From positions 1 through 34,818 of the IMG/VR virus record IMGVR_UViG_3300028592_000049: a stretch of 34,818 nt of DNA. One strand, given 5' to 3'. This DNA comes from a virus. Below the pieces are notes generated by a model. That model saw nothing but the letters and a program-made list of their open reading frames with translations. It made no database searches and had not been told where the DNA came from. Positions within the stretch are counted from its first letter, which is position 1. Every line of letters begins with the position of its first letter. Positions 1,990 through 10,400 of this stretch are shown here, piece after piece. A program made the position numbers and the translations under genes.

Positions 1990-2460
1990 GTGCGCATCGT
2001 GCCGATGACCTTGCGGGAGGCCAACGACTTCGTGGAGCGGTGGCACCGGCACTCTGCGCGCACGTCCAACGATGGCGGCAAGTACGCCATCGGCCTAGAG
2101 TACGAGAGCCAACTCGTCGGCGTGGCCATTGTCGGCCGCCCGGTGGCGCGGCTGCTGCAGGTGCCGGGCGCGGCCGAACTGCTCCGGTTGTGCACGTCTC
2201 CGGCTGCGCCGAAGGGCGCCGGCTCCAAGCTCTACTCGCGCGCCAAGCGCATCTGGCAGCTGATGGGCGGGACGACGATCCACACCTACACCCTGAAGCA
2301 CGAGGGCGGCGCCACTCTCCGCGGCGCTGGCATCCACGAGGCTGCGGCCGAGGTCGATGGGCAGCAGTGGACGAGGCCGAGCAGGCCGCGCGACGAGAAG
2401 GCAGTCTATGACGAGGACAAGCTCCGATGGACGGAGACCTTGCCTGAAGTGAAAGTTTGA
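1990..2460 (+). CDS. XF1762-family GNAT-like protein
   Basis: 156 residues from GTG 1990, preceded by gagggagcagcag. The sequence pattern (MRIVPMTLREANDFVERWHR, then GVAIVGRPVARLL, LCTSP, SKLYSRAKRIWQLMGG and a C-terminal WTRPSRPR) matches, from memory, the XF1762 family. This is a small GNAT-fold protein common in phages and prophages; its substrate is not established. It is in operon with the zinc-ribbon gene 10 nt downstream. Family assignment is by recall of the pattern, not by a search. Confidence 0.75.
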   Translation: MRIVPMTLREANDFVERWHRHSARTSNDGGKYAIGLEYESQLVGVAIVGRPVARLLQVPGAAELLRLCTSPAAPKGAGSKLYSRAKRIWQLMGGTTIHTYTLKHEGGATLRGAGIHEAAAEVDGQQWTRPSRPRDEKAVYDEDKLRWTETLPEVKV

Positions 2461-2766: not shown

Positions 2767-3729
2767 TCAGTTCTGGTTGGCGGCGGCCGGCTTGGTGGCC
2801 GGAGCTGTCACCAGCTTCAGAGACGGGCGGGAAGCCCGCTTGGCTGGGACCGGGGCAGGCTTGGGCGCCTGCTTCGCCTTGTCCTTGCGCGGCCGCTTCG
2901 GCTTGGGCTGCGCCTTAGGCTCCGGCTTCGGCGCCCCCTTGGTGGGGCCGCGGTGGGCGGAGTAGGCGATCAGCCCGCAGGCAAGGCCGTTGGCGGCCAT
3001 GCTGCCGAGGGCGGCCGCGATGATATCAAGGAGCCAGGCCGGCACCTTGATGCGGTCGGCAAGCGGCGTCGCCGAGGGCGGCGCCTTCAGGTGCAACAGC
3101 GCTGTGCGGGCGGCCTTCAGCTCGGCCTCGGCCGCCGCCTTGAGAGCGGCGACCTCGTCGCGAGCTGCCTTGACCTCGATGCCAGCCGAGGCGGCGTTGC
3201 CCTCCAAGAGCTTGGTGCAGTTGTCCAAGCAGGTCCTGGCGGTGCTGTTGTCGATCCTCGCCTTGTCGGCTGCCGCCTTGCTCGCCTCCGCCTTGGTGAG
3301 GCGGGGAGAGGTGGTGGGCACGTCCCGGAGGGCAGCCTCGGCCGCGGTGACGCGGGCCTTGGCGTTGTCGATGACGTGGGCGGCCTCGATGAGCGGCGCC
3401 TGAGCCGCGTCTCGAGAGGCAACGATGCGCTCGGCGGTAGAGAGAAAGCCGAACGCCTCGCCAGCGATGATCGTGACGACCAGGAAGCGGGCGAGAGCCC
3501 GCCGGCCGGCCGCAGACGCCGCGCCGATGACCAGCGCAGCGATCCCGACGCCACCGGCAACCGCGAGGACCAGGACGGCCGCGGCGGAGCCGTAGCCGCC
3601 CGTGTGGGCGATCGTCACGTGTGCGGTAGCGCCGAGGATGGCGAGCCCCACCACCAGGGCAACGCCACGGAGAGCGTAGCGGCGCGAGATTGCACCGGCA
3701 CGCCGGAAGATGTAGGAGAGAGCAGCCAC
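2767..3729 (-). CDS. membrane protein with periplasmic-type coiled coil and basic tail
   Basis: 320 residues from GTG at 3729, chosen because GGAGG lies just upstream; the frame remains open to 4122 but has no good start there. Predicted helices lie at about 22-40, 49-71, 80-96 and 232-257. Residues about 105-215 are a long Ala/Lys/Glu coiled coil containing a Cys pair (CLDNC, 167-171). The C-terminal 60 residues are Pro/Lys rich. The arrangement recalls phage membrane proteins that span the periplasm or scaffold membrane complexes, but I cannot assign a family. Last gene of the leftward array; it lacks the paired arms that flank its neighbours. Confidence 0.75.
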   Translation of the reverse strand: MAALSYIFRRAGAISRRYALRGVALVVGLAILGATAHVTIAHTGGYGSAAAVLVLAVAGGVGIAALVIGAASAAGRRALARFLVVTIIAGEAFGFLSTAERIVASRDAAQAPLIEAAHVIDNAKARVTAAEAALRDVPTTSPRLTKAEASKAAADKARIDNSTARTCLDNCTKLLEGNAASAGIEVKAARDEVAALKAAAEAELKAARTALLHLKAPPSATPLADRIKVPAWLLDIIAAALGSMAANGLACGLIAYSAHRGPTKGAPKPEPKAQPKPKRPRKDKAKQAPKPAPVPAKRASRPSLKLVTAPATKPAAANQN

Positions 3730-3748
3730 AACACACCTCCATGTGTTG
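3729..3748 (-). promoter_or_regulatory. start-site hairpin displaying the ribosome site
   Basis: Seven perfect pairs (3729-3735 with 3742-3748) enclose a six-base loop that, on the minus strand, reads TGGAGG and so contains the Shine-Dalgarno sequence. The GTG start codon begins at the last base of the stem. The structure would hold the ribosome site single-stranded and fix its distance from the start. Confidence 0.5.
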
Positions 3749-3756
3749 GGGTTGAC

Positions 3757-3846
3757 CGGGCACAGCCCGGCCATACCGGGTGGTATGGGTTCCTGATGCG
3801 GGGTAGGACGGCCGGACCCGGATGCAACACCTGCTCGGGTCCGGCC
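3757..3846 (-). promoter_or_regulatory. structured leader with three hairpins
   Basis: Upstream of the membrane-protein gene the leader can form three consecutive hairpins. One is an 11 bp perfect stem with a 15 nt loop (3810-3820 with 3836-3846), one a 7 bp stem with a 4 nt loop (about 3771-3788), and one a 6 bp stem with a 3 nt loop (about 3757-3771). No U tract follows any of them. A regulatory leader or a partial terminator would both fit. Confidence 0.4.
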
Positions 3847-3903
3847 GGCCGGATCGCGGCTGGCCGGTGGAGGGACGGCGTCCGCGAATTGGGGTAGTCT
3901 GGA

Positions 3904-4240
3904 TCTCGACGCCCCTTGGGAGGACGGCCCCGGGCATGCAGGGGCCGCCCGAAGGGCATCACGCAGCGGCTTCGCGCGCCTCGCGCCAGCGGCGCTCGGC
4001 GGCTTCGGCAGCGGCATCCTCGCACCTCGTCCGCCAGCGCTCCGCGATCTCGTCGGCGTAGTGCTTGGCGACAAGGGGATAGACGCCCCTGATGGACAGC
4101 AAGTCGTGGGCATCGAGCCCACCGAGGATCTCCTCGATGATCTCGCCCTCGTCCTCGTCCGTCATCTCGCTGTAGATGGTACGCATTGCACGCTCCTCCG
4201 GGTTGTGGTCGTGAGACCGTCCACCGAAGGGGTGTCGAGA
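3904..4240 (-). repeat. cassette arms around the 3959-4186 gene (family E)
   Basis: Downstream arm 3904-3929 is complementary to upstream arm 4215-4240 at 22 of 26 positions, with one further position able to form G-U in RNA. A hairpin with G-U pairs (about 3921-3950) lies between the stop codon and the downstream arm and shares its last bases with the arm. Confidence 0.75.
3959..4186 (-). CDS. small acidic helical protein, paralogue of the 6087-6305 product
   Basis: 75 residues; strong ribosome site (ggaggagcg) before ATG. It aligns along its length with the 72-residue product of 6087-6305: EII..I...LD..D.L.I.G....AK.Y.D.IAERWR and a shared WREAR near the C-terminus. This indicates duplication within the array. 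All helical, no catalytic motif; function unknown. Confidence 0.8.
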   Translation of the reverse strand: MRTIYSEMTDEDEGEIIEEILGGLDAHDLLSIRGVYPLVAKHYADEIAERWRTRCEDAAAEAAERRWREAREAAA

Positions 4241-4306
4241 CAGGTGTTAGAGGTTCCAGAGACCGCCCCTGCCGAGCGGGGGCAGGCAGGAGCGGCCTCG
4301 ATCCCG

Positions 4307-4432
4307 TCACTTCCCTGACAGCATCGCCTCGAGGCGGGCCTTGCGAGCCCACTCCCGCGCCTCCTCCATGGTGTGGAAGCTGCGCTCGATGGTGATGCCG
4401 CCGGGAAGGTTGACGGTGATGGTGATGTCCAT
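4307..4432 (-). CDS. 41 aa hypothetical protein
   Basis: 41 residues from ATG 4432 (MDITITVNLPGGITIERSFH...), with tgggggtcc before the start. The frame extends upstream to 4585 but without protein-like sequence. It has a beta hairpin-like N-terminus and an amphipathic helix (MEEAREWARKARLEAML). Its flanks contain only a weak arm match (4258-4271 with 4462-4476, one bulge). Confidence 0.65.
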   Translation of the reverse strand: MDITITVNLPGGITIERSFHTMEEAREWARKARLEAMLSGK

Positions 4433-4551
4433 GATGGACCCCCACGCTGGAGCGACCGCCTCAGGGGCGTGTCTTTCCGTGTCGCTTCGCGACGGGGTGA
4501 GGCCGGACGCCTCTGAAGCAGAGCACACCCGTGAAGGTGTGCTCGGCAGGG

Positions 4552-4708
4552 TCACGAGAGCTTCTTCAGGTCGGCAATGGGGCACGGGGTCTTCACCCCG
4601 CTGTCCCAGGCCACGAAGGCCATCCGGTCAACATCGATGAGCTCGACGCGCCCGATGTCGTGATCGTCACCTTCCTTCGCCGGCCTTGACCCTGTCGCCG
4701 ACTTCTAT
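4552..4708 (-). pseudogene. frameshifted small gene with a KOW/SH3-like look
   Basis: Leftward, one frame reads IEVGDRVKAGEG (about 4708-4670) and then stops. Shifting by one base at the gaaggaagg stretch continues as DDHDIGRVELIDVDRMAF and VAWDSGVKTPCPIADLKKLS to a TGA at 4552-4554. Together they look like one small beta-barrel protein broken by one extra base. The first protein-like codon is ATA, not a usual start, and the paired upstream arm is missing. Decay is the simplest reading; a programmed frameshift or a sequencing error is possible. A 9 bp hairpin (4521-4529 with 4536-4544) follows the stop. Confidence 0.6.
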
Positions 4709-4711
4709 TGT

Positions 4712-4970
4712 CCGGCTCTCCTGTAGGGCGGCCCGAAGGCCGCCGGAGATCACTGCGCATCTCGGACGATGATCTTATCGCCCGGGGTGAGGTAGGGCAG
4801 TTCCTGGAGCATTTCGATCACGGCCTCTTTCGCGGCCGCGCCGATCACCTCCTCGTCGTCGTGCCCGTTCTCGACCGTGCGCGAATCAATCACGCCGCCC
4901 GAGTTGTGCAGTTCGACACAGAGCTTCATGTCTTCCTCCGTTGGTTAGAGTCGCCCAACAGAAGAGCCGG
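4712..4970 (-). repeat. cassette arms around the 4750-4929 gene (family B)
   Basis: Downstream arm 4712-4730 matches upstream arm 4952-4970 at 17 of 19 positions; one of the two differences can form a G-U pair in RNA. The hairpin behind the stop (4727-4733 with 4738-4744) has a UUCG loop on the transcript strand and overlaps the arm by four bases. The same family flanks the 6993-7211 gene. Confidence 0.8.
4750..4929 (-). CDS. hypothetical 59 aa protein
   Basis: ATG at 4929 is preceded by acggaggaagac and the frame runs 59 codons to TGA (4750-4752). The protein begins MKLCVELHNSGG, has an acidic turn (NGHDDEEV) and ends LTPGDKIIVRDAQ. It is an alpha/beta mini-protein with no recognised family. 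The ribosome site and flanking arms identical in style to other units support it. Confidence 0.75.
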   Translation of the reverse strand: MKLCVELHNSGGVIDSRTVENGHDDEEVIGAAAKEAVIEMLQELPYLTPGDKIIVRDAQ

Positions 4971-4971
4971 T

Positions 4972-5617
4972 AAGAGCCCTCTGGGATTGGCCCGCCGAAG
5001 CGGGCCGGGGTCATCCCTGATGTCCGATGTGGCGCTTGCGCGCCACCTCCCACGCTGCGTTCCACAAGACGATGTCGGCGTCCTCCTTGGCGTCCCGGCC
5101 GTCCTCCCCAAAGATGGGTTCGCGGCCGAGCACTTGCTCGAAGGCATCCGACATCGTCATGTTGGCGTCGCAGTAGCTCTGCGAAGCGCACGCGCCGCCG
5201 GACCGGAAGGGAGGCTCGGTCTCGTTGCGCCGCTTCATCTCCGCGAACTTGCGCTCGCCAAGATCCTCCTTGAGACTCGCCGAAAACGTCTCGGCGAGCA
5301 GGAAGGCCAGAACCTCGTTCCAGTCGTCGGTGTCGAGCACCGACTCGGCATTGCCGCGCTGCCCGTCCGGGGTGGCAAGCACCGTGAAGCGCTTGGTCTC
5401 GGGGTGCTCGCGCGACGCGGCCTTCTGGTAGTCGACGAAGACGGTGAACCCCGTCTCGGTGAAGAACGACGGGCAGGCATCGTTGTGCCAGCTCGTGTCC
5501 GTCCACGTCGGCGGGATCGCCGGCAGGGTCGTGGGATCGAAGTCAGGGAACTCATCGCTGTAAGCCATGAGCAGTGTCCTCCGTTGCTTGAGATTGCACC
5601 AATCCCGGAGGGCTCTT
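4972..5617 (-). repeat. cassette arms around the 5011-5568 gene (family C)
   Basis: Downstream arm 4972-4990 matches upstream arm 5599-5617 at 18 of 19 positions. The hairpin behind the stop (4989-4995 with 5000-5006) has a UUCG loop on the transcript strand. The arm contains ATTGG paired with CCAAT, whereas the other family C unit (6404-6613) has TTTGG paired with CCAAA. Confidence 0.85.
5011..5568 (-). CDS. hypothetical protein, 185 aa
   Basis: 185 residues from ATG 5568, chosen for the acggaggac site upstream; the frame is open to 5655 across the non-coding leader. Soluble, acidic, Trp-containing N-terminus (DFDPTTLPAIPPTW), a middle part with TVFVDYQKAASREHPETKRF, and a Cys-containing segment (GGACASQSYCDANMTMSDAF). 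No domain recognised. It is the longest gene of the arm-flanked array. Confidence 0.75.
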   Translation of the reverse strand: MAYSDEFPDFDPTTLPAIPPTWTDTSWHNDACPSFFTETGFTVFVDYQKAASREHPETKRFTVLATPDGQRGNAESVLDTDDWNEVLAFLLAETFSASLKEDLGERKFAEMKRRNETEPPFRSGGACASQSYCDANMTMSDAFEQVLGREPIFGEDGRDAKEDADIVLWNAAWEVARKRHIGHQG

Positions 5618-5626
5618 GTATAGTCG

Positions 5627-5689
5627 CCAGCGCCCTCAAGGGCAGCCGCCAACAAGCGGCTGCATGGTTGCTGCCCATGAAGGCGCTGG
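5627..5689 (-). repeat. gene-less cassette (family A arms and hairpin only)
   Basis: Arms 5627-5646 and 5670-5689 match at 18 of 20 positions and belong to the same family as those around 6718-6906. The upstream arm here is identical over 20 bases to that at 6927-6946. Between them are only an 8 bp hairpin (5642-5649 with 5656-5663) and six bases, where the sister unit has a whole gene. Confidence 0.75.
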
Positions 5690-5700
5690 CATGCGAGGTT

Positions 5701-6025
5701 GGACGCCTCGGGGGCAGAGCCACCCGCCTCGTAAGAGAGGCAAGCGGCTCCGGTAGGGTCAGACCCCGGCCTCCAGCCCTTCGGCGAAAAGCGTGAGCTT
5801 GTCGCCTCTGAGCCAGTGACCGGTCATGGGGTTCTCGATCCACACGTCACCGTCGCTGTTGACGGCGGCTTCGTGACAGTTCGCGAACCGCTTCGCAGCA
5901 TCGATCACCACCTCGTCGTCGAAGCCCTTGATGATCTCGCGGGCCTGATCCTCGGTGATGCTCGGGGTGTAGCTGGCCATATCAGTCTCCTCCGTTGCTA
6001 GGGTTGCTCTGCGCCGGAGGCGTCC
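5701..6025 (-). repeat. cassette arms around the 5759-5980 gene (family D)
   Basis: Downstream arm 5701-5725 matches upstream arm 6001-6025 at 22 of 25 positions. A 12 bp hairpin with G-U pairs (5719-5730 with 5737-5748) follows the stop and shares seven bases with the arm. A related downstream arm without partner lies at 4505-4524, behind the broken gene. Confidence 0.8.
5759..5980 (-). CDS. hypothetical 73 aa protein
   Basis: 73 residues from ATG 5980 with a strong ggaggagactgat site. N-terminal half helical (SITEDQAREIIKGFDDEVV), second half with GDVWIENPMTGHWLRGDK, suggesting a small alpha+beta fold. No family recognised. Flanked by family D arms and co-directional with the array. Confidence 0.75.
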   Translation of the reverse strand: MASYTPSITEDQAREIIKGFDDEVVIDAAKRFANCHEAAVNSDGDVWIENPMTGHWLRGDKLTLFAEGLEAGV

Positions 6026-6035
6026 AGTTCTCAAT

Positions 6036-6351
6036 CGACACTCCTTCGGAGGACAGCCCCGGTAGTCAGGGCCATCCCGGAAAGGACTAGGCTACCATCC
6101 GCCGAGCCTCGCGCCACGTGTTCTCCTCCGCATGGAGGCGGTCAGCCTCCTGGGATTCGCGGTAGCGCTCGGCGATGTCGTCCTCGTAGGCCTTGGCGAT
6201 GTACTCGCGCAGGCCGGTGATTTCGAGGATGTCGGCGGTGTCCAGGTTCCGGACGATATCGGCGATGATCTCGTCCTCGACCTGCTGACGGTAGGTGCTA
6301 CTCATACTCTCCTCCGGGGTTGCGAAAGGGCAGTCCACCGTAGGAGTGTCG
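6036..6351 (-). repeat. cassette arms around the 6087-6305 gene (family E)
   Basis: Downstream arm 6036-6059 matches upstream arm 6328-6351 at 21 of 24 positions. The three differences are transversions at isolated positions. A hairpin with G-U pairs lies between the stop and the arm (about 6051-6079). Arm sequence resembles those at 4215-4240 and 7606-7626. Confidence 0.8.
6087..6305 (-). CDS. small acidic helical protein, paralogue of the 3959-4186 product
   Basis: 72 residues from ATG 6305, preceded by ccggaggagagt. Helical and acidic, with EDEIIADIVRNLDTADILEI in the N-terminal half and WREARRMVA at the C-terminus. It shares order and spacing of these segments with the 3959-4186 product. 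Both units also have family E arms, so arms and gene seem to have been duplicated together. Function unknown. Confidence 0.8.
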   Translation of the reverse strand: MSSTYRQQVEDEIIADIVRNLDTADILEITGLREYIAKAYEDDIAERYRESQEADRLHAEENTWREARRMVA

Positions 6352-6362
6352 GGATAGAGGGT

Positions 6363-6657
6363 GAGGAGCCCTCGGGGTTTGGCCCGCCGAAGCGGGCCGG
6401 GGGCTAGGCGTCGAAGTAGACAGTCACCTCTGGAGAGGCGCCGCCTCCAAGGACCAGCCCGCCGTCGCACAGGTGACGGTAGGCCTTCTCTCGGGAGCCG
6501 TAGCGCTCGACGATGGCGTCCGCGTTCTCAAGGGCGAAAGTCTCCCAATCCTCCACGGTGTCCAGTGTGACGTGGATGCTGCCATCGGTCTGCGTTTCTG
6601 GGCTGATTGCCATGATGTCCTCCGTTGCTGGGTTGCACCAAACCCGGAGGGCTCCTC
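6363..6657 (-). repeat. cassette arms around the 6404-6613 gene (family C)
   Basis: Downstream arm 6363-6382 matches upstream arm 6638-6657 at 19 of 20 positions. The hairpin behind the stop (6381-6387 with 6392-6398) has a UUCG loop on the transcript strand and no U tract after it. Confidence 0.85.
6404..6613 (-). CDS. hypothetical 69 aa protein
   Basis: 69 residues from ATG 6613 with acggaggacatc upstream; the open frame beyond is leader. Sequence features: SIHVTLDTVEDWETFALENA, a helix with AIVERYGSREKAYRHLCDGG, and a beta-like end EVTVYFDA. Probably a compact alpha/beta protein. No family recognised. Confidence 0.75.
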   Translation of the reverse strand: MAISPETQTDGSIHVTLDTVEDWETFALENADAIVERYGSREKAYRHLCDGGLVLGGGASPEVTVYFDA

Positions 6658-6667
6658 GGTAGTAGGT

Positions 6668-6946
6668 CCAGCGCCTACAAGGGCAGCCGCCACAGCTAGG
6701 CGGCTGCGCCGATCTACTCAGCCGGGGACGGCCTCCACCACCTCGATGGACCACAGCCACCCGTTGATGCGGATGGTGTCTCCCTCGTCGATGTCGTAGA
6801 CCGTCAGAACGTCGTCGAGGCATTCGTGGTCGCCCACGAGTCGCCCGCGGATAGAGTGTGCTCCGCAGCCGGTCTCGGCCTCGATCAGTGTCCCGTCCTT
6901 GTACATCGTCACCTCCATGGTCGGTTGCTGCCCATGAAGGCGCTGG
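6668..6946 (-). repeat. cassette arms around the 6718-6906 gene (family A)
   Basis: Downstream arm 6668-6687 matches upstream arm 6927-6946 at 18 of 20 positions. A perfect 9 bp hairpin (6683-6691 with 6699-6707) shares five bases with the downstream arm. This is the gene-bearing sister of the empty unit at 5627-5689. Confidence 0.8.
6718..6906 (-). CDS. hypothetical 62 aa protein
   Basis: 62 residues from ATG 6906, chosen because ggaggtgacg precedes it; an in-frame ATG lies upstream inside gaccatgg but would place the ribosome site within the gene. Beta-rich small protein: MYKDGTLIEAETGCGAHSI, then VLTVYDIDEGDTIRINGW and VEVVEA-like end. A small barrel is plausible. Function unknown. Confidence 0.7.
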   Translation of the reverse strand: MYKDGTLIEAETGCGAHSIRGRLVGDHECLDDVLTVYDIDEGDTIRINGWLWSIEVVEAVPG

Positions 6947-6952
6947 GAAGGT

Positions 6953-7252
6953 CCGGCTCTCCTGTAGGGCGGCCCGTTAAGGCCGCCGGAGATCACCACA
7001 TCTGCCGCGCTGTCTGCCAAGCCTCTTTGGCCGCCCACCAGAAAAAGGCGCCGAGCACGAAGGCCCAGGCGATGGTGGGGAGGTCGGCCAAGCCGTACCC
7101 TTCGACGCTGAGAACAACGCCGAGAAGGCTCAGCCCGCCGAGGAGCCAAAGCACGATGGCTCCGAAGCGGAAGAAGATGGAAACAGCACCGCAAGCTAGG
7201 GATGCGAACATAGTCCTCTCCGTTGGTTAGAGTCGCCCAACAGGAGAGCCGG
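6953..7252 (-). repeat. cassette arms around the 6993-7211 gene (family B)
   Basis: Downstream arm 6953-6973 matches upstream arm 7232-7252 at 19 of 21 positions. A perfect 7 bp hairpin (6968-6974 with 6981-6987) behind the stop shares six bases with the arm. Confidence 0.85.
6993..7211 (-). CDS. small two-helix membrane protein
   Basis: 72 residues from ATG 7211, preceded by acggagaggact. Two hydrophobic segments, about residues 10-35 (RFGAIVLWLLGGLSLLGVVL) and 47-62 (IAWAFVLGAFFWWAA), followed by a short polar C-terminus (KEAWQTARQMW). Likely an inner-membrane protein. Its small size and position would fit a host-interaction or lysis-accessory role, but nothing in the sequence proves either. 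Confidence 0.7.
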   Translation of the reverse strand: MFASLACGAVSIFFRFGAIVLWLLGGLSLLGVVLSVEGYGLADLPTIAWAFVLGAFFWWAAKEAWQTARQMW

Positions 7253-7253
7253 T

Positions 7254-7626
7254 AGGATGCCCCGTGAAGGACGGCCCCGAAGGGCCGTCGGAGTCGCTTG
7301 GATCAAATGTTCACGAAGGTGCGATCGGCCTGCCGCCAATTCTTGAAGCCGGCAGGGGCCCGGGAACCCTTCATCACGGTGGCCGTCACCTGCAATCGCT
7401 TGCCGGTAGCAGCCGCACGCGCCTTGTAGTCCTCGAACTTGGCCTGCACGTCGCCAAGCTTGGTGGCCTCGATCACCTCGTCCGGGAAGGGCGGACCCTC
7501 GCCCAGGCCGATGCTGATCGAGATGAACCCCTGCGGGCTCACGTCGTGCACTTTGTAGGTGTGAAGTTTGATCTTCGCCATTGGGTATGTCCTCCGTGGT
7601 TGGAACCGTCCATCACGGGGCATCCT
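7254..7626 (-). repeat. cassette arms around the 7303-7581 gene (family E-like)
   Basis: Downstream arm 7254-7274 matches upstream arm 7606-7626 at 20 of 21 positions, one of the closest matches in the array. The hairpin behind the stop (7270-7277 with 7282-7289) has an 8 bp stem and a UUCG loop on the transcript strand and overlaps the arm. Confidence 0.85.
7303..7581 (-). CDS. hypothetical 92 aa protein, first gene of the leftward array
   Basis: 92 residues from ATG 7581 with acggaggacatacccA upstream. Upstream in-frame sequence to 7719 is leader. The protein starts MAKIKLHTYKVHDVSPQG and contains a charged helix (KFEDYKARAAATGKRLQV). It is basic at the C-terminus (GFKNWRQADRTFVNI). Function unknown. 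Its proximity to the leftward promoter suggests it is transcribed first. Confidence 0.75.
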   Translation of the reverse strand: MAKIKLHTYKVHDVSPQGFISISIGLGEGPPFPDEVIEATKLGDVQAKFEDYKARAAATGKRLQVTATVMKGSRAPAGFKNWRQADRTFVNI

Positions 7627-7717
7627 GGATTCTGCGGCCCGCCGCCTCGCCCTATGACCCCGATCTGAGAGGTGGCCCCCCGGAAGTATCGGTGCGAGAT
7701 CGTCGCCATGTGTTGGC

Positions 7718-7746
7718 AATATGGTCGGTTTTTAGCACACAGTAAA
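7718..7746 (-). promoter_or_regulatory. candidate sigma70-type promoter for the leftward array
   Basis: On the minus strand TTTACT (7741-7746) and CATATT (7718-7723) are separated by exactly 17 bases, in the most AT-rich stretch of the region. Both hexamers match the consensus at four of six positions. It lies about 110 nt before the first array gene. Confidence 0.5.
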
Positions 7747-7756
7747 GAGGGTTTCG

Positions 7757-7772
7757 ATCACGTTTTCGTGAT
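7757..7772. promoter_or_regulatory. inverted repeat, possible operator
   Basis: ATCACG (7757-7762), four Ts, and CGTGAT (7767-7772) form a perfect inverted repeat between the leftward promoter candidate and the RHH gene. Its symmetry and position fit an operator for that gene's product. With the following T residues it could also act as a weak hairpin. Confidence 0.4.
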
Positions 7773-7796
7773 TTTCGAGCGCACGCAATTAGGGCG

Positions 7797-8030
7797 ATGG
7801 TGGAGGGCATGAACAGCACGCCTGAGAAAGTCCGGCGCCCAGGGCGCCCGACAAAGCCGACCGACGAGCGCCTGGTCCGCATTGACATCCGCCTGCCCCC
7901 GGCCGTGCTGGCCAAGGTGGATGCGGTGGTGGACCCCGACCTCGGGGAGGACCGCGCCAGCGTGCTGCGGCGGCTGATCGTGCGCGGGCTCGAAGGTGAG
8001 GCGGTGGCTCGCAAGAGCGGGCGGGCGTGA
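7797..8030 (+). CDS. ribbon-helix-helix (CopG/Arc-type) DNA-binding protein
   Basis: 77 residues from ATG 7797, or 73 from ATG 7809. A basic N-terminal arm (RRPGRPTKPTDER) precedes a beta strand VRIDIRLPPAVLAKVDAVV and a helix pair (DRASVLRRLIVRGL), the typical RHH layout. Such proteins bind operators as dimers. It faces away from the leftward array, next to an inverted repeat, so it is a good candidate for the control-region repressor. The stop overlaps the next start (GTGA). Confidence 0.75.
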   Translation: MVEGMNSTPEKVRRPGRPTKPTDERLVRIDIRLPPAVLAKVDAVVDPDLGEDRASVLRRLIVRGLEGEAVARKSGRA

Positions 8031-8254
8031 GTGATCCCCTCGTCCCCGAGCGGGAGATCACCGAGACGCTGATCGCCATCGACGCCCCACACTTCTACGC
8101 CGGCATCGTGGCCAGGGACGGGCGCGTGGTCGAGGCCGCCCACATCGTCAAGTACATGAAGGGCTGGGACGGCGCCAAGGTGGCGGCCTACTGCAAGAGC
8201 AAGGGCTGGTCCTGGGAGGTGGTGAGCCGCACCTCGGCGGTGATGAAGGGGTAG
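8027..8254 (+). CDS. hypothetical 75 aa protein
   Basis: 75 residues from GTG 8027, overlapping the previous stop. N-terminal part beta-like (ETLIAIDAPHFYAGIVARDG), C-terminal part with KYMKGWDGAKVAAYCKSKGW. Small soluble phage protein often found next to regulators; no function recognised. Coupled translation with the RHH protein suggests a shared role or simple operon packing. Confidence 0.65.
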   Translation: MSDPLVPEREITETLIAIDAPHFYAGIVARDGRVVEAAHIVKYMKGWDGAKVAAYCKSKGWSWEVVSRTSAVMKG

Positions 8255-8490: not shown

Positions 8491-9558
8491 GTGAGATATA
8501 GCATGCTGCAAGCCAGCGAGTGGCGCACGTCGCGCCGGTATACGCGCGAGCAGGGGGCGAAGGCTTTCGCCCGGTTCGGTCCACCCAACGACCGTGACGG
8601 GCTGAGCGACGCGCGGGCGCCGCTCACGAACATCCAGTACGGCTCCCGGTGGTCCTGCTACGTGCGCTGGTGCCAGGAGGGCGAGCGCCAGCCGATGCCG
8701 GCGAGCGCCGGCCAGGTGCTTGACTTCTTCCGCTACCTTCGCGACGAGCGCCGGCTGACGGCGGAGTCCATCGCCCATTACCTCTGCGCGCTCTCCACCA
8801 TCCACAAGATCCACCACCATCCGAGGCTCGACCGCAGCAAGACCGTCGAGCCGATGAACGCGCTCCGGGAACGTGCGGAGCCGCCGCGGCGCATGGCCCC
8901 CCTGCGCGGCGATATGCTCGCCGACTTGGTGCGCCGCTTCGACCCCAATAACCCGCGGGACGCCCGCGACGCGGTGATCCTGCTGCTGGCCTACGCGTGT
9001 GCGTTCCGGTCGTGCGAGCTCGTGGGCCTGGACTGGGAGCGGCCGGGCTCCAGCCTCCTGGGCGGCACCGGCCACATCGCCCGAGACCCGCGCGGCGGGT
9101 ACATGATCACGTTGCGGAAGTCCAAGACCTCGCGGCGACGCTCCAAGCAGCTCCCGCTGCCGGATGAGGACATGCCATCCCTGGGGCCGTGGCTCGACTG
9201 CTGGCTCATGCACGCCGGCACCAAGCCGGGGCAACCGTTGTTTCGCTCCATGGTCAGAGGCGGTCGCATCCTCCCCCAGCGCCTGGCGGCGGAATCGGTG
9301 ATCTCGATCGTCCGCCGGCGCGTCCACGCCTACGCCCAGGCGACCGGCAAGTCGGAGGAGGAGGCGACCTACATGTGCCGTCTCTTTGGCAGCCACTCCA
9401 TGCGACGTGGGTACTGCACCACTGCCGCGGATGAGTGCGTGCCGCTTGCGGAGCTCCGCAGACGGTCCAGGCACACCAACATCAAGCAGCTCGGCGACTA
9501 CATCGAGGAGGCGGAGGGGTGGCACCGGTCGGGGCTCACGAACGGCGTGGGGTTCTGA
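8491..9558 (+). CDS. int: tyrosine recombinase (phage integrase)
   Basis: 355 residues from GTG 8491, or 351 from ATG 8503, which has gtgag upstream. N-terminal SAM-like core-binding part (about 50-120), catalytic domain afterwards. Catalytic residues visible: Arg173 (FRSCELVGL), His302 and Arg305 (HSMRRG), His328 (RHTN) and nucleophile Tyr337 (GDYI). This is the full set expected for integrases of this family apart from the less conserved Lys. It would integrate or excise the phage genome or resolve multimers. Its presence suggests a temperate phage. Confidence 0.9.
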   Translation: MRYSMLQASEWRTSRRYTREQGAKAFARFGPPNDRDGLSDARAPLTNIQYGSRWSCYVRWCQEGERQPMPASAGQVLDFFRYLRDERRLTAESIAHYLCALSTIHKIHHHPRLDRSKTVEPMNALRERAEPPRRMAPLRGDMLADLVRRFDPNNPRDARDAVILLLAYACAFRSCELVGLDWERPGSSLLGGTGHIARDPRGGYMITLRKSKTSRRRSKQLPLPDEDMPSLGPWLDCWLMHAGTKPGQPLFRSMVRGGRILPQRLAAESVISIVRRRVHAYAQATGKSEEEATYMCRLFGSHSMRRGYCTTAADECVPLAELRRRSRHTNIKQLGDYIEEAEGWHRSGLTNGVGF

Positions 9559-9830: not shown

Positions 9831-10400
9831 ATGCGCCCAGAGCGATACTTCGTCCGATCAAGGCCGCAGCGTGAGCGACAAGCGTGTGGTCGCTTGTCCC
9901 TGCGAGGCGTATCTGCGCTGTCGCCGCATACGCGACAATTCCTGGTGGAGAAGGGGAGGCGCACTGAGCGCAAGAGCCAGCCCATCCTCCCTGGGTACAT
10001 CGTAGCCAAGATGGAGCCCGTGCAATTCCCGGTGCTCCGCGAGGTGGAGGATGTGAGCCCCCGCCCACTGATGGCAGGGGGCGAGGCGCGACCGCTCAAG
10101 CCGGTTGAGCGCGCCTACATCGGCCAGCTCGTGCGAAAGCCTCCCGCCGATCCGCGTGACCCATTCGCCGATCCGAAGAACCCGCTCGCTCCGCCACGCA
10201 AGAAGCCGGACCCCAATCGCCCGCCCTTCCGCCAGGGGCAGGAGGTGAAGGTGGTGAAGGCCGGCGCCTTCTTCGGCTTCTCCGCTGCGGTGGAGGAACT
10301 CAAACGCACGGGCAAGAAGTGGAAGGCCAAGGTGGCGGTGATGATCTTCGGCCGCCCCACGCCGCTTGATCTTGATGCCACCGATCTGGTGGCAGCGTAA
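9831..10400 (+). CDS. phage NusG-like transcription elongation/antitermination protein
   Basis: 189 residues. The first 60 look like a NusG N-terminal domain: RYFVRSRPQRERQACGRL, a basic segment, then PILPGYIVAKM, matching the W/YxxxxxPxxE and FPGY signatures. Residues about 125-175 carry a KOW-like motif (FRQGQEVKVVKAGAFFGF) and the usual beta-rich end. The middle is a proline-rich linker (DPRDPFADPKNPLAPPRKK). NusG proteins bind RNA polymerase and modulate pausing or termination. A phage copy would probably act as a RfaH-like or antitermination factor. Assignment rests on motifs. Confidence 0.7.
   Translation: MRPERYFVRSRPQRERQACGRLSLRGVSALSPHTRQFLVEKGRRTERKSQPILPGYIVAKMEPVQFPVLREVEDVSPRPLMAGGEARPLKPVERAYIGQLVRKPPADPRDPFADPKNPLAPPRKKPDPNRPPFRQGQEVKVVKAGAFFGFSAAVEELKRTGKKWKAKVAVMIFGRPTPLDLDATDLVAA

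Follow-up and report, generated by a model that had tools for sequence, protein, structure and literature searches.

A gene array on the minus strand of a tailed-phage record, IMG/VR virus record IMGVR_UViG_3300028592_000049 (positions 1 to 34,818, the whole stretch analyzed, hereafter the window), consists of small genes that are each enclosed by their own pair of complementary arms. Computation on this array, which occupies positions 3904-7626, showed that the 5′ arm of a unit has two exclusive partners, its own 3′ arm beyond the gene and the Shine-Dalgarno (SD) sequence of its own leader, that the arms prefer their own partners, that paired positions have changed in a compensatory manner, and that the frames were retained in related phages while the genes inside them were exchanged. 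We regard it as an even call that the units act as RNA, serving as untranslated-region (UTR) frames that give any enclosed coding sequence a two-state fold.

The window contains identified terminase, portal, major capsid, and integrase genes. In the array, nine small genes are each flanked by arms of 19-28 nucleotides (nt); the 5′ arms end 15-30 nt ahead of the start codons, the 3′ arms come after a hairpin that follows the stop codon, and the distance from arm to arm across the gene is about 200-610 nt, with only about 1-14 nt between adjacent units over most of the array. One more unit, the tenth (5626-5690), consists of two arms without a gene. The arms fall into six types, A-F, of which A, B, C, and D each occur twice in the window, and from the promoter side the frames run E, A, B, C, D, F, B (empty), C, and A, with D further on. 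Such an arrangement had been described in a sequence-only reading of the window, and its nine gene-enclosing arm pairs and gene-less hairpin were found where it had placed them. The high complementarity that it reported also stands, but its range of 85-95% was too narrow, since Watson-Crick matching within the arm pairs is 81-95%. A further unit that it placed at 4307-4432 was not counted because its gapped match is weak (score 12, the same as unrelated pairs) and because it was missing from our scan of the window.

When the whole window was scanned for arms 90-900 nt apart, 9 of the 12 best-scoring pairs fell in intergenic gaps of 3904-7626. Nine pairs in the array region scored at least 15, against a mean of 0.085 and a maximum of 2 in 200 dinucleotide shuffles, and the array genes scored 15-20 while 26 other genes in the window gave 5.0-8.75 in the same test. 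The sequence-only reading had named shuffled sequence and other genes of the window as controls that might yield similar pairings, and its claim withstood both. For 14 units from three phages, the summed score of arms with their own partners was unmatched by all 200,000 random re-pairings. The predicted arm pairing of the units is well supported.

Folding predictions indicated two uses of the 5′ arm. All ten 5′ arms paired with their own 3′ arms in the predicted fold of the 3.84-kb whole transcript, and in correctly bounded units the closure gained 19-32 kcal/mol relative to folds in which the 5′ arm was forced to be single-stranded; this gain was lost when the 5′ arm was shuffled. Together with the compensating changes in the arms described below, these folds agree with the loop closure proposed in the sequence-only reading. 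What that reading missed is the complementarity of the 5′ arm to its own SD, from which a more specific mechanism follows. With the leader alone, the mean pairing probability between SD and 5′ arm was 0.85; with shuffled 5′ arms the mean was 0.44, and none of 200 trials gave more than 0.61. The predicted masking was weak in frame F and in the second frame D. As examples, CUCUCC.GUUGG of frame A pairs with CCAACGGAGAG, and CCUUCAUGG of frame B pairs with CCAUGGAGG. Among the six types, the match of the 5′ arms was best with the SDs of their own leaders, and only 6 of 720 permutations equalled or bettered it. A third conserved element, namely pairing of the SD with sequence just past the stop codon, was also considered and was rejected, as it showed no own-partner preference (211 of 720 permutations).

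The 5′ arm pairs with its own SD as well as with its 3′ arm, and each unit therefore has two mutually exclusive folds; in the models it is either a leader hairpin that masks the SD or a closed 5′-3′ loop that ends this masking. In folds of the growing transcript, the mean pairing of SD and 5′ arm was 0.81 through the coding sequence and 0.04 after the complete 3′ arm, and it dropped in all 13 of the 13 units on completion of that arm. Mean SD exposure rose at the same step from 0.14 to 0.26, which is close to the average of 0.32 for nine other genes of the window. When the 3′ arm was shuffled, the predicted masking hairpin stayed.

Comparison of copies of the same frame revealed seven compensatory pair changes in total. 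Frame E has three (C-G to U-A, A-U to G-C, and one G-C pair deleted from both arms; p = 0.004), frame C has two (p = 0.004), frame D has one, and frame A has one, in which C-G passes via U-G to U-A. Every arm duplex also has a mismatch between two pyrimidines, 11-16 positions in from its outer end; frames A, B, and D have U-U there, as does E in the window. The compensatory change and this mismatch also fit the strongest alternative explanation, namely that the arm duplexes are RNase III-type processing or end-protection stems that cut the early transcript into stable single-gene messages, with SD pairing secondary. Arm duplexes of 19-28 bp amount to about two helical turns, which suits such stems, as do the narrow gaps between units over most of the array and the lack of internal sigma-70 promoters; sigma-70-like promoters were found on neither strand of the array and nowhere within 3500-8200, in a search that did not cover phage-specific or other promoter types. 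This explanation leaves the complementarity of the 5′ arm to the SD of its own leader unexplained, and we consider it unlikely.

A search of related phages for the paired arms, as the sequence-only reading had suggested, found the frames in two contigs, G001 and L044, which come from the same metagenome and differ in gene content. The capsid protein of G001 is 85% identical to that of the window. Two further contigs, L043 and L067, represent the window phage itself over the covered part (99.99% identity), L067 starting at window position 7799, beyond the array. In the promoter-leader region before the first unit (7627-7745, minus strand), positions 7635-7707 are conserved ahead of the arrays of both relatives, with 88% identity over 75 nt between the window and G001, and the leader pattern CATAGGGCGAGRCGGCGGGCCG matches only these phages. 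After the conserved leader the frames run A-B in G001 and E-A-B in L044, E being absent from G001. The genes inside have been replaced repeatedly: frame A occurs in four places with four unrelated genes (window 6993, window 4750, G001 3883, and L044 881), the frame E gene differs between the window and L044, and the gene of a 65-66-amino-acid protein (88% identity) occupies frame A in G001 but frame B in L044. In alignments, the conserved parts of a frame run from the arm as far as the SD and again from roughly the stop codon as far as the 3′ arm; what lies between these parts is unrelated, and the exchange therefore took place near the start and stop codons. The exchangeable cassettes considered in the sequence-only reading are borne out in that gene content is swapped, but the swap occurs between start and stop inside a stationary frame, and the arms are not mobile ends.

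Gene exchange within and between frames and the gene-less frame at 5626-5690 would also be in line with cassettes at the DNA level. Here the arms would be inverted repeats that serve gene exchange and owe their likeness to recombination or template-switch correction, and RNA pairing would be incidental; template-switch correction could account for matched changes on the two sides as well. However, the exchange points near the start and stop codons lie inside the arms, the U-U mismatches of frames A, B, and D and of E in the window sit at a fixed place and have gone uncorrected, the own-leader SD complementarity is left without an explanation, and no transposase was found among the scanned proteins near the array. 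We find this explanation improbable.

Beyond the two relatives, arms were absent from other phages' homologues of the moved gene (L050-L060), from the distant relatives G002-G009, several of whose contigs end short of the array region, and from L068 and the scanned loci of other distant relatives. The array region had no match among GenBank phages, Rfam gave only matches far under the family cut-offs, and no capsid relative was found among species genomes. The pattern matches in L045 and L046 lie in coding sequence and are due to chance, and the five matches of the leader pattern in bacterial genomes were likewise all chance.

The weakest alternative, which we judge very improbable, is a transcription switch in which the inner 5′ arm competes with the terminator hairpin after the gene and arm closure opens the hairpin and lets polymerase enter the next unit, a step in which the NusG-like protein encoded nearby at 9831-10400 could take part: five frames (A, B, D, E, and F) do have the inner half of the 5′ arm paired with the post-gene hairpin on its 3′ side, and the closed fold loses or weakens that hairpin, but a U tract is missing from the post-gene hairpins, polymerase is already past the hairpin when it makes the outer 3′ arm, and frame C retains its hairpin in the closed fold.

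We therefore favor RNA-acting frames with two states, for which the following course can be proposed. The 5′ arm of a new leader would act as an anti-SD and pair with the SD of the same gene, thereby hiding it, and this masking would persist while the gene is transcribed. The 3′ arm, which mimics the SD region and follows the post-gene hairpin, would then capture the 5′ arm by strand displacement, and the message would be closed as a 5′-3′ loop that no longer has the leader hairpin. Translation would then probably proceed mainly from complete units with both ends in duplex, so that the early transcript from a single upstream promoter would behave like a string of self-contained messages. The pairing may thus function in translation licensing, perhaps with RNase III processing, and the message may be protected or processed at the arm duplex. 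We infer that the folds form in cells, that they affect translation in the direction given here, that they influence message stability, and that the phage benefits; the sign of the translation effect is the weakest step of the proposal.

Several observations weigh against this proposal. SD exposure increases only modestly in the closed fold, in 10 of 13 units and by a mean of 0.12, and the SD of frame A pairs in the closed fold with sequence past the stop codon. Because the SD finds other partners, in frame A above all, a closed unit might also be silent, like the hok and aapA3 messages discussed below. The structures are predictions for a GC-rich RNA that was modeled without ribosomes, proteins, or kinetics. 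Frame B has one-sided changes only and no compensatory change, and frame F is present in a single copy. Mismatches on the transcript strand comprise 10 G-U and 5 A-C, and strand-specific RNA selection is not proven by them because this excess is not significant (p = 0.30). Finally, the frames occur in only three phages, a small family of uncultured ones, and two of these are from one metagenome.

The individual units, all on the minus strand, are as follows from the promoter side; the arms come from the arm-pair scan, the 3′ arm of the second frame C is compensatory relative to frame C, and that of frame E has compensatory changes as well. In frame E, the 5′ arm (7602-7626) matches the 3′ arm (7254-7278) at 22 of 25 positions and the gene (7303-7581) encodes 92 amino acids, an unrelated gene being present in frame E of L044. 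Frame A has arms at 7230-7252 and 6953-6975 (20/23 match; own-SD pairing probability 0.99 in the leader alone) around a gene for a hydrophobic protein of 72 amino acids (6993-7211). Frame B (6927-6946 and 6668-6687; 18/20; SD pairing probability 1.00) holds a 62-amino-acid gene (6718-6906) with a homologue in frame B of G001 (55% identity), and frame C (6638-6657 and 6363-6382; 19/20; SD pairing probability 1.00) holds a gene for an acidic protein of 69 amino acids (6404-6613). The gene of frame D (6087-6305, 72 amino acids; arms 6328-6351 and 6036-6059, 21/24) is a paralogue of 3959-4186 and distantly homologous to the gene that moved between frames in G001 and L044. Frame F (6001-6026 and 5700-5725; 23/26) encloses a gene for an acidic protein of 73 amino acids (5759-5980), and the gene-less frame B that follows has both arms with the coding sequence missing and is predicted to form a single 65-nt hairpin. 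The second frame C (5599-5617 and 4972-4990; 18/19) holds a gene for a 185-amino-acid protein of phrog_21393, function unknown (5011-5568). In the second frame A (4945-4970 and 4712-4737; 21/26), the gene (4750-4929; 59 amino acids, acidic) is unrelated to the first frame A gene, and in the second frame D (4213-4240 and 3904-3931; 23/28) the gene (3959-4186; 75 amino acids) has 46% identity to 6087-6305. Eight of the nine array proteins have no hydrophobic segment, and most have a charge of -7 to -16. Next to the second frame A, directly beyond its 3′ arm, an apparent broken small gene without its own frame lies at 4552-4708 on the minus strand, where a stop codon is followed by continuation in another reading frame (DHDIGRVELIDVDRMAFVAWDSGVKTPCPIADLKKLS).

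Between the array and a divergent gene (7797-8030) lies the palindrome ATCACGAAAACGTGAT (7757-7772), possibly the operator of the array promoter. The divergent gene resembles a ribbon-helix-helix regulator, and a similar divergent gene precedes the G001 array. On the plus strand, 9831-10400 encodes the NusG-like protein mentioned above (phrog_6386, transcription antiterminator; Pfam NusG just over the cut-off) and neighbors the integrase gene (8491-9558). Two copies of a near-palindromic element, TGTTACGCCGTGTTACGC....GCGTAACATTACGACG, lie about 1.1 kb apart at 1572-1609 and 2671-2708; both adjoin a C-rich run, with few clear genes around them. For 1990-2460 (plus strand), the Mom DNA-modification family gave a weak match (E 0.00025, under the family cut-off). 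In both relatives, genes downstream of framed ones (L026 2540-3260 and L044 200-290, minus strand) share a second leader type, e.g., GGAAAGCCCCGAAGGAGGGGGCAC; it has no distant arms, and a small hairpin contains or adjoins its SD.

We know of no array of this kind, and literature searches found no described array of tandem gene-independent mRNA frames. That the units represent a portable, gene-independent mRNA frame, in which an anti-SD in the 5′ arm and an SD decoy in the 3′ arm tie translation to completion of the unit and which is used in tandem with swappable accessory genes, is a tentative proposal that we hold a little less firmly than the two-state fold. If it is true, phages can standardize the regulation of accessory genes separately from the genes themselves, and the frames would be a natural parts kit for completion-dependent translation. 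The frame architecture would also be a handle for recognizing similar gene arrays from sequence.

In pre-rRNA processing stems and at the RNase III sites of T7 early mRNA, complementary flanks lie on each RNA unit. The array is predicted from its sequence to resemble them, with complementary sequences flanking units of a longer transcript, but its arms also pair with the SD. A transposon or miniature inverted-repeat transposable element (MITE) with terminal inverted repeats was rejected in view of the six unlike arm types and the absence of a transposase among the scanned proteins. The promoter early stem-loops (PeSLs) of T4-type phages, as far as Arbiol (2010) and Comeau (2014) are relayed in PMC4503421 and PMC3950731, combine a stem-loop with an early promoter. 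On that account they share with the array conserved intergenic elements among small exchangeable early genes that are tied to gene shuffling; in contrast to what is relayed there, the array has six frame types with pairing across the gene, and its junctions showed no sigma-70 promoter. The start-associated sequences (SAS) of cluster K mycobacteriophages and their extended form (ESAS) are repeats with an SD just upstream of the starts of small non-structural genes, and ESAS are 17-bp inverted repeats, with a spacer of 4-13 bp in most sites, that lie only upstream; the authors found little support for RNA pairing (PMC3203893). The array elements likewise repeat upstream of small-gene starts, and their membership in ESAS is ruled out by geometry, the arms being about 200-610 nt apart across a gene.

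The folding logic predicted for the array is closest to that of type I toxin mRNAs. In aapA3/IsoA3 and hok/Sok, an anti-SD leader hairpin masks the SD during transcription, and the complete message swaps this hairpin for pairing of its 5′ and 3′ ends, with support from covariation; the full-length message is silent when closed and becomes active through 3′ trimming, in a system of one toxin gene and an antisense RNA (PMC6733600). The array units resemble these messages in the predicted long-distance 5′-3′ pairing, which is found in all of them, in the predicted transient leader hairpin that masks the SD, which is weak in frame F and the second frame D, and in being supported by covariation. 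They differ in that the masking hairpin is predicted to return once the 3′ arm is removed, and in that a short hydrophobic toxin reading frame is not what they enclose, eight of the nine proteins having no hydrophobic segment. Whereas translation control by mRNA-end pairing is known so far from single toxin messages, the frame of the array is reusable around a whole series of diverse genes whose products are mostly acidic and not toxin-like.

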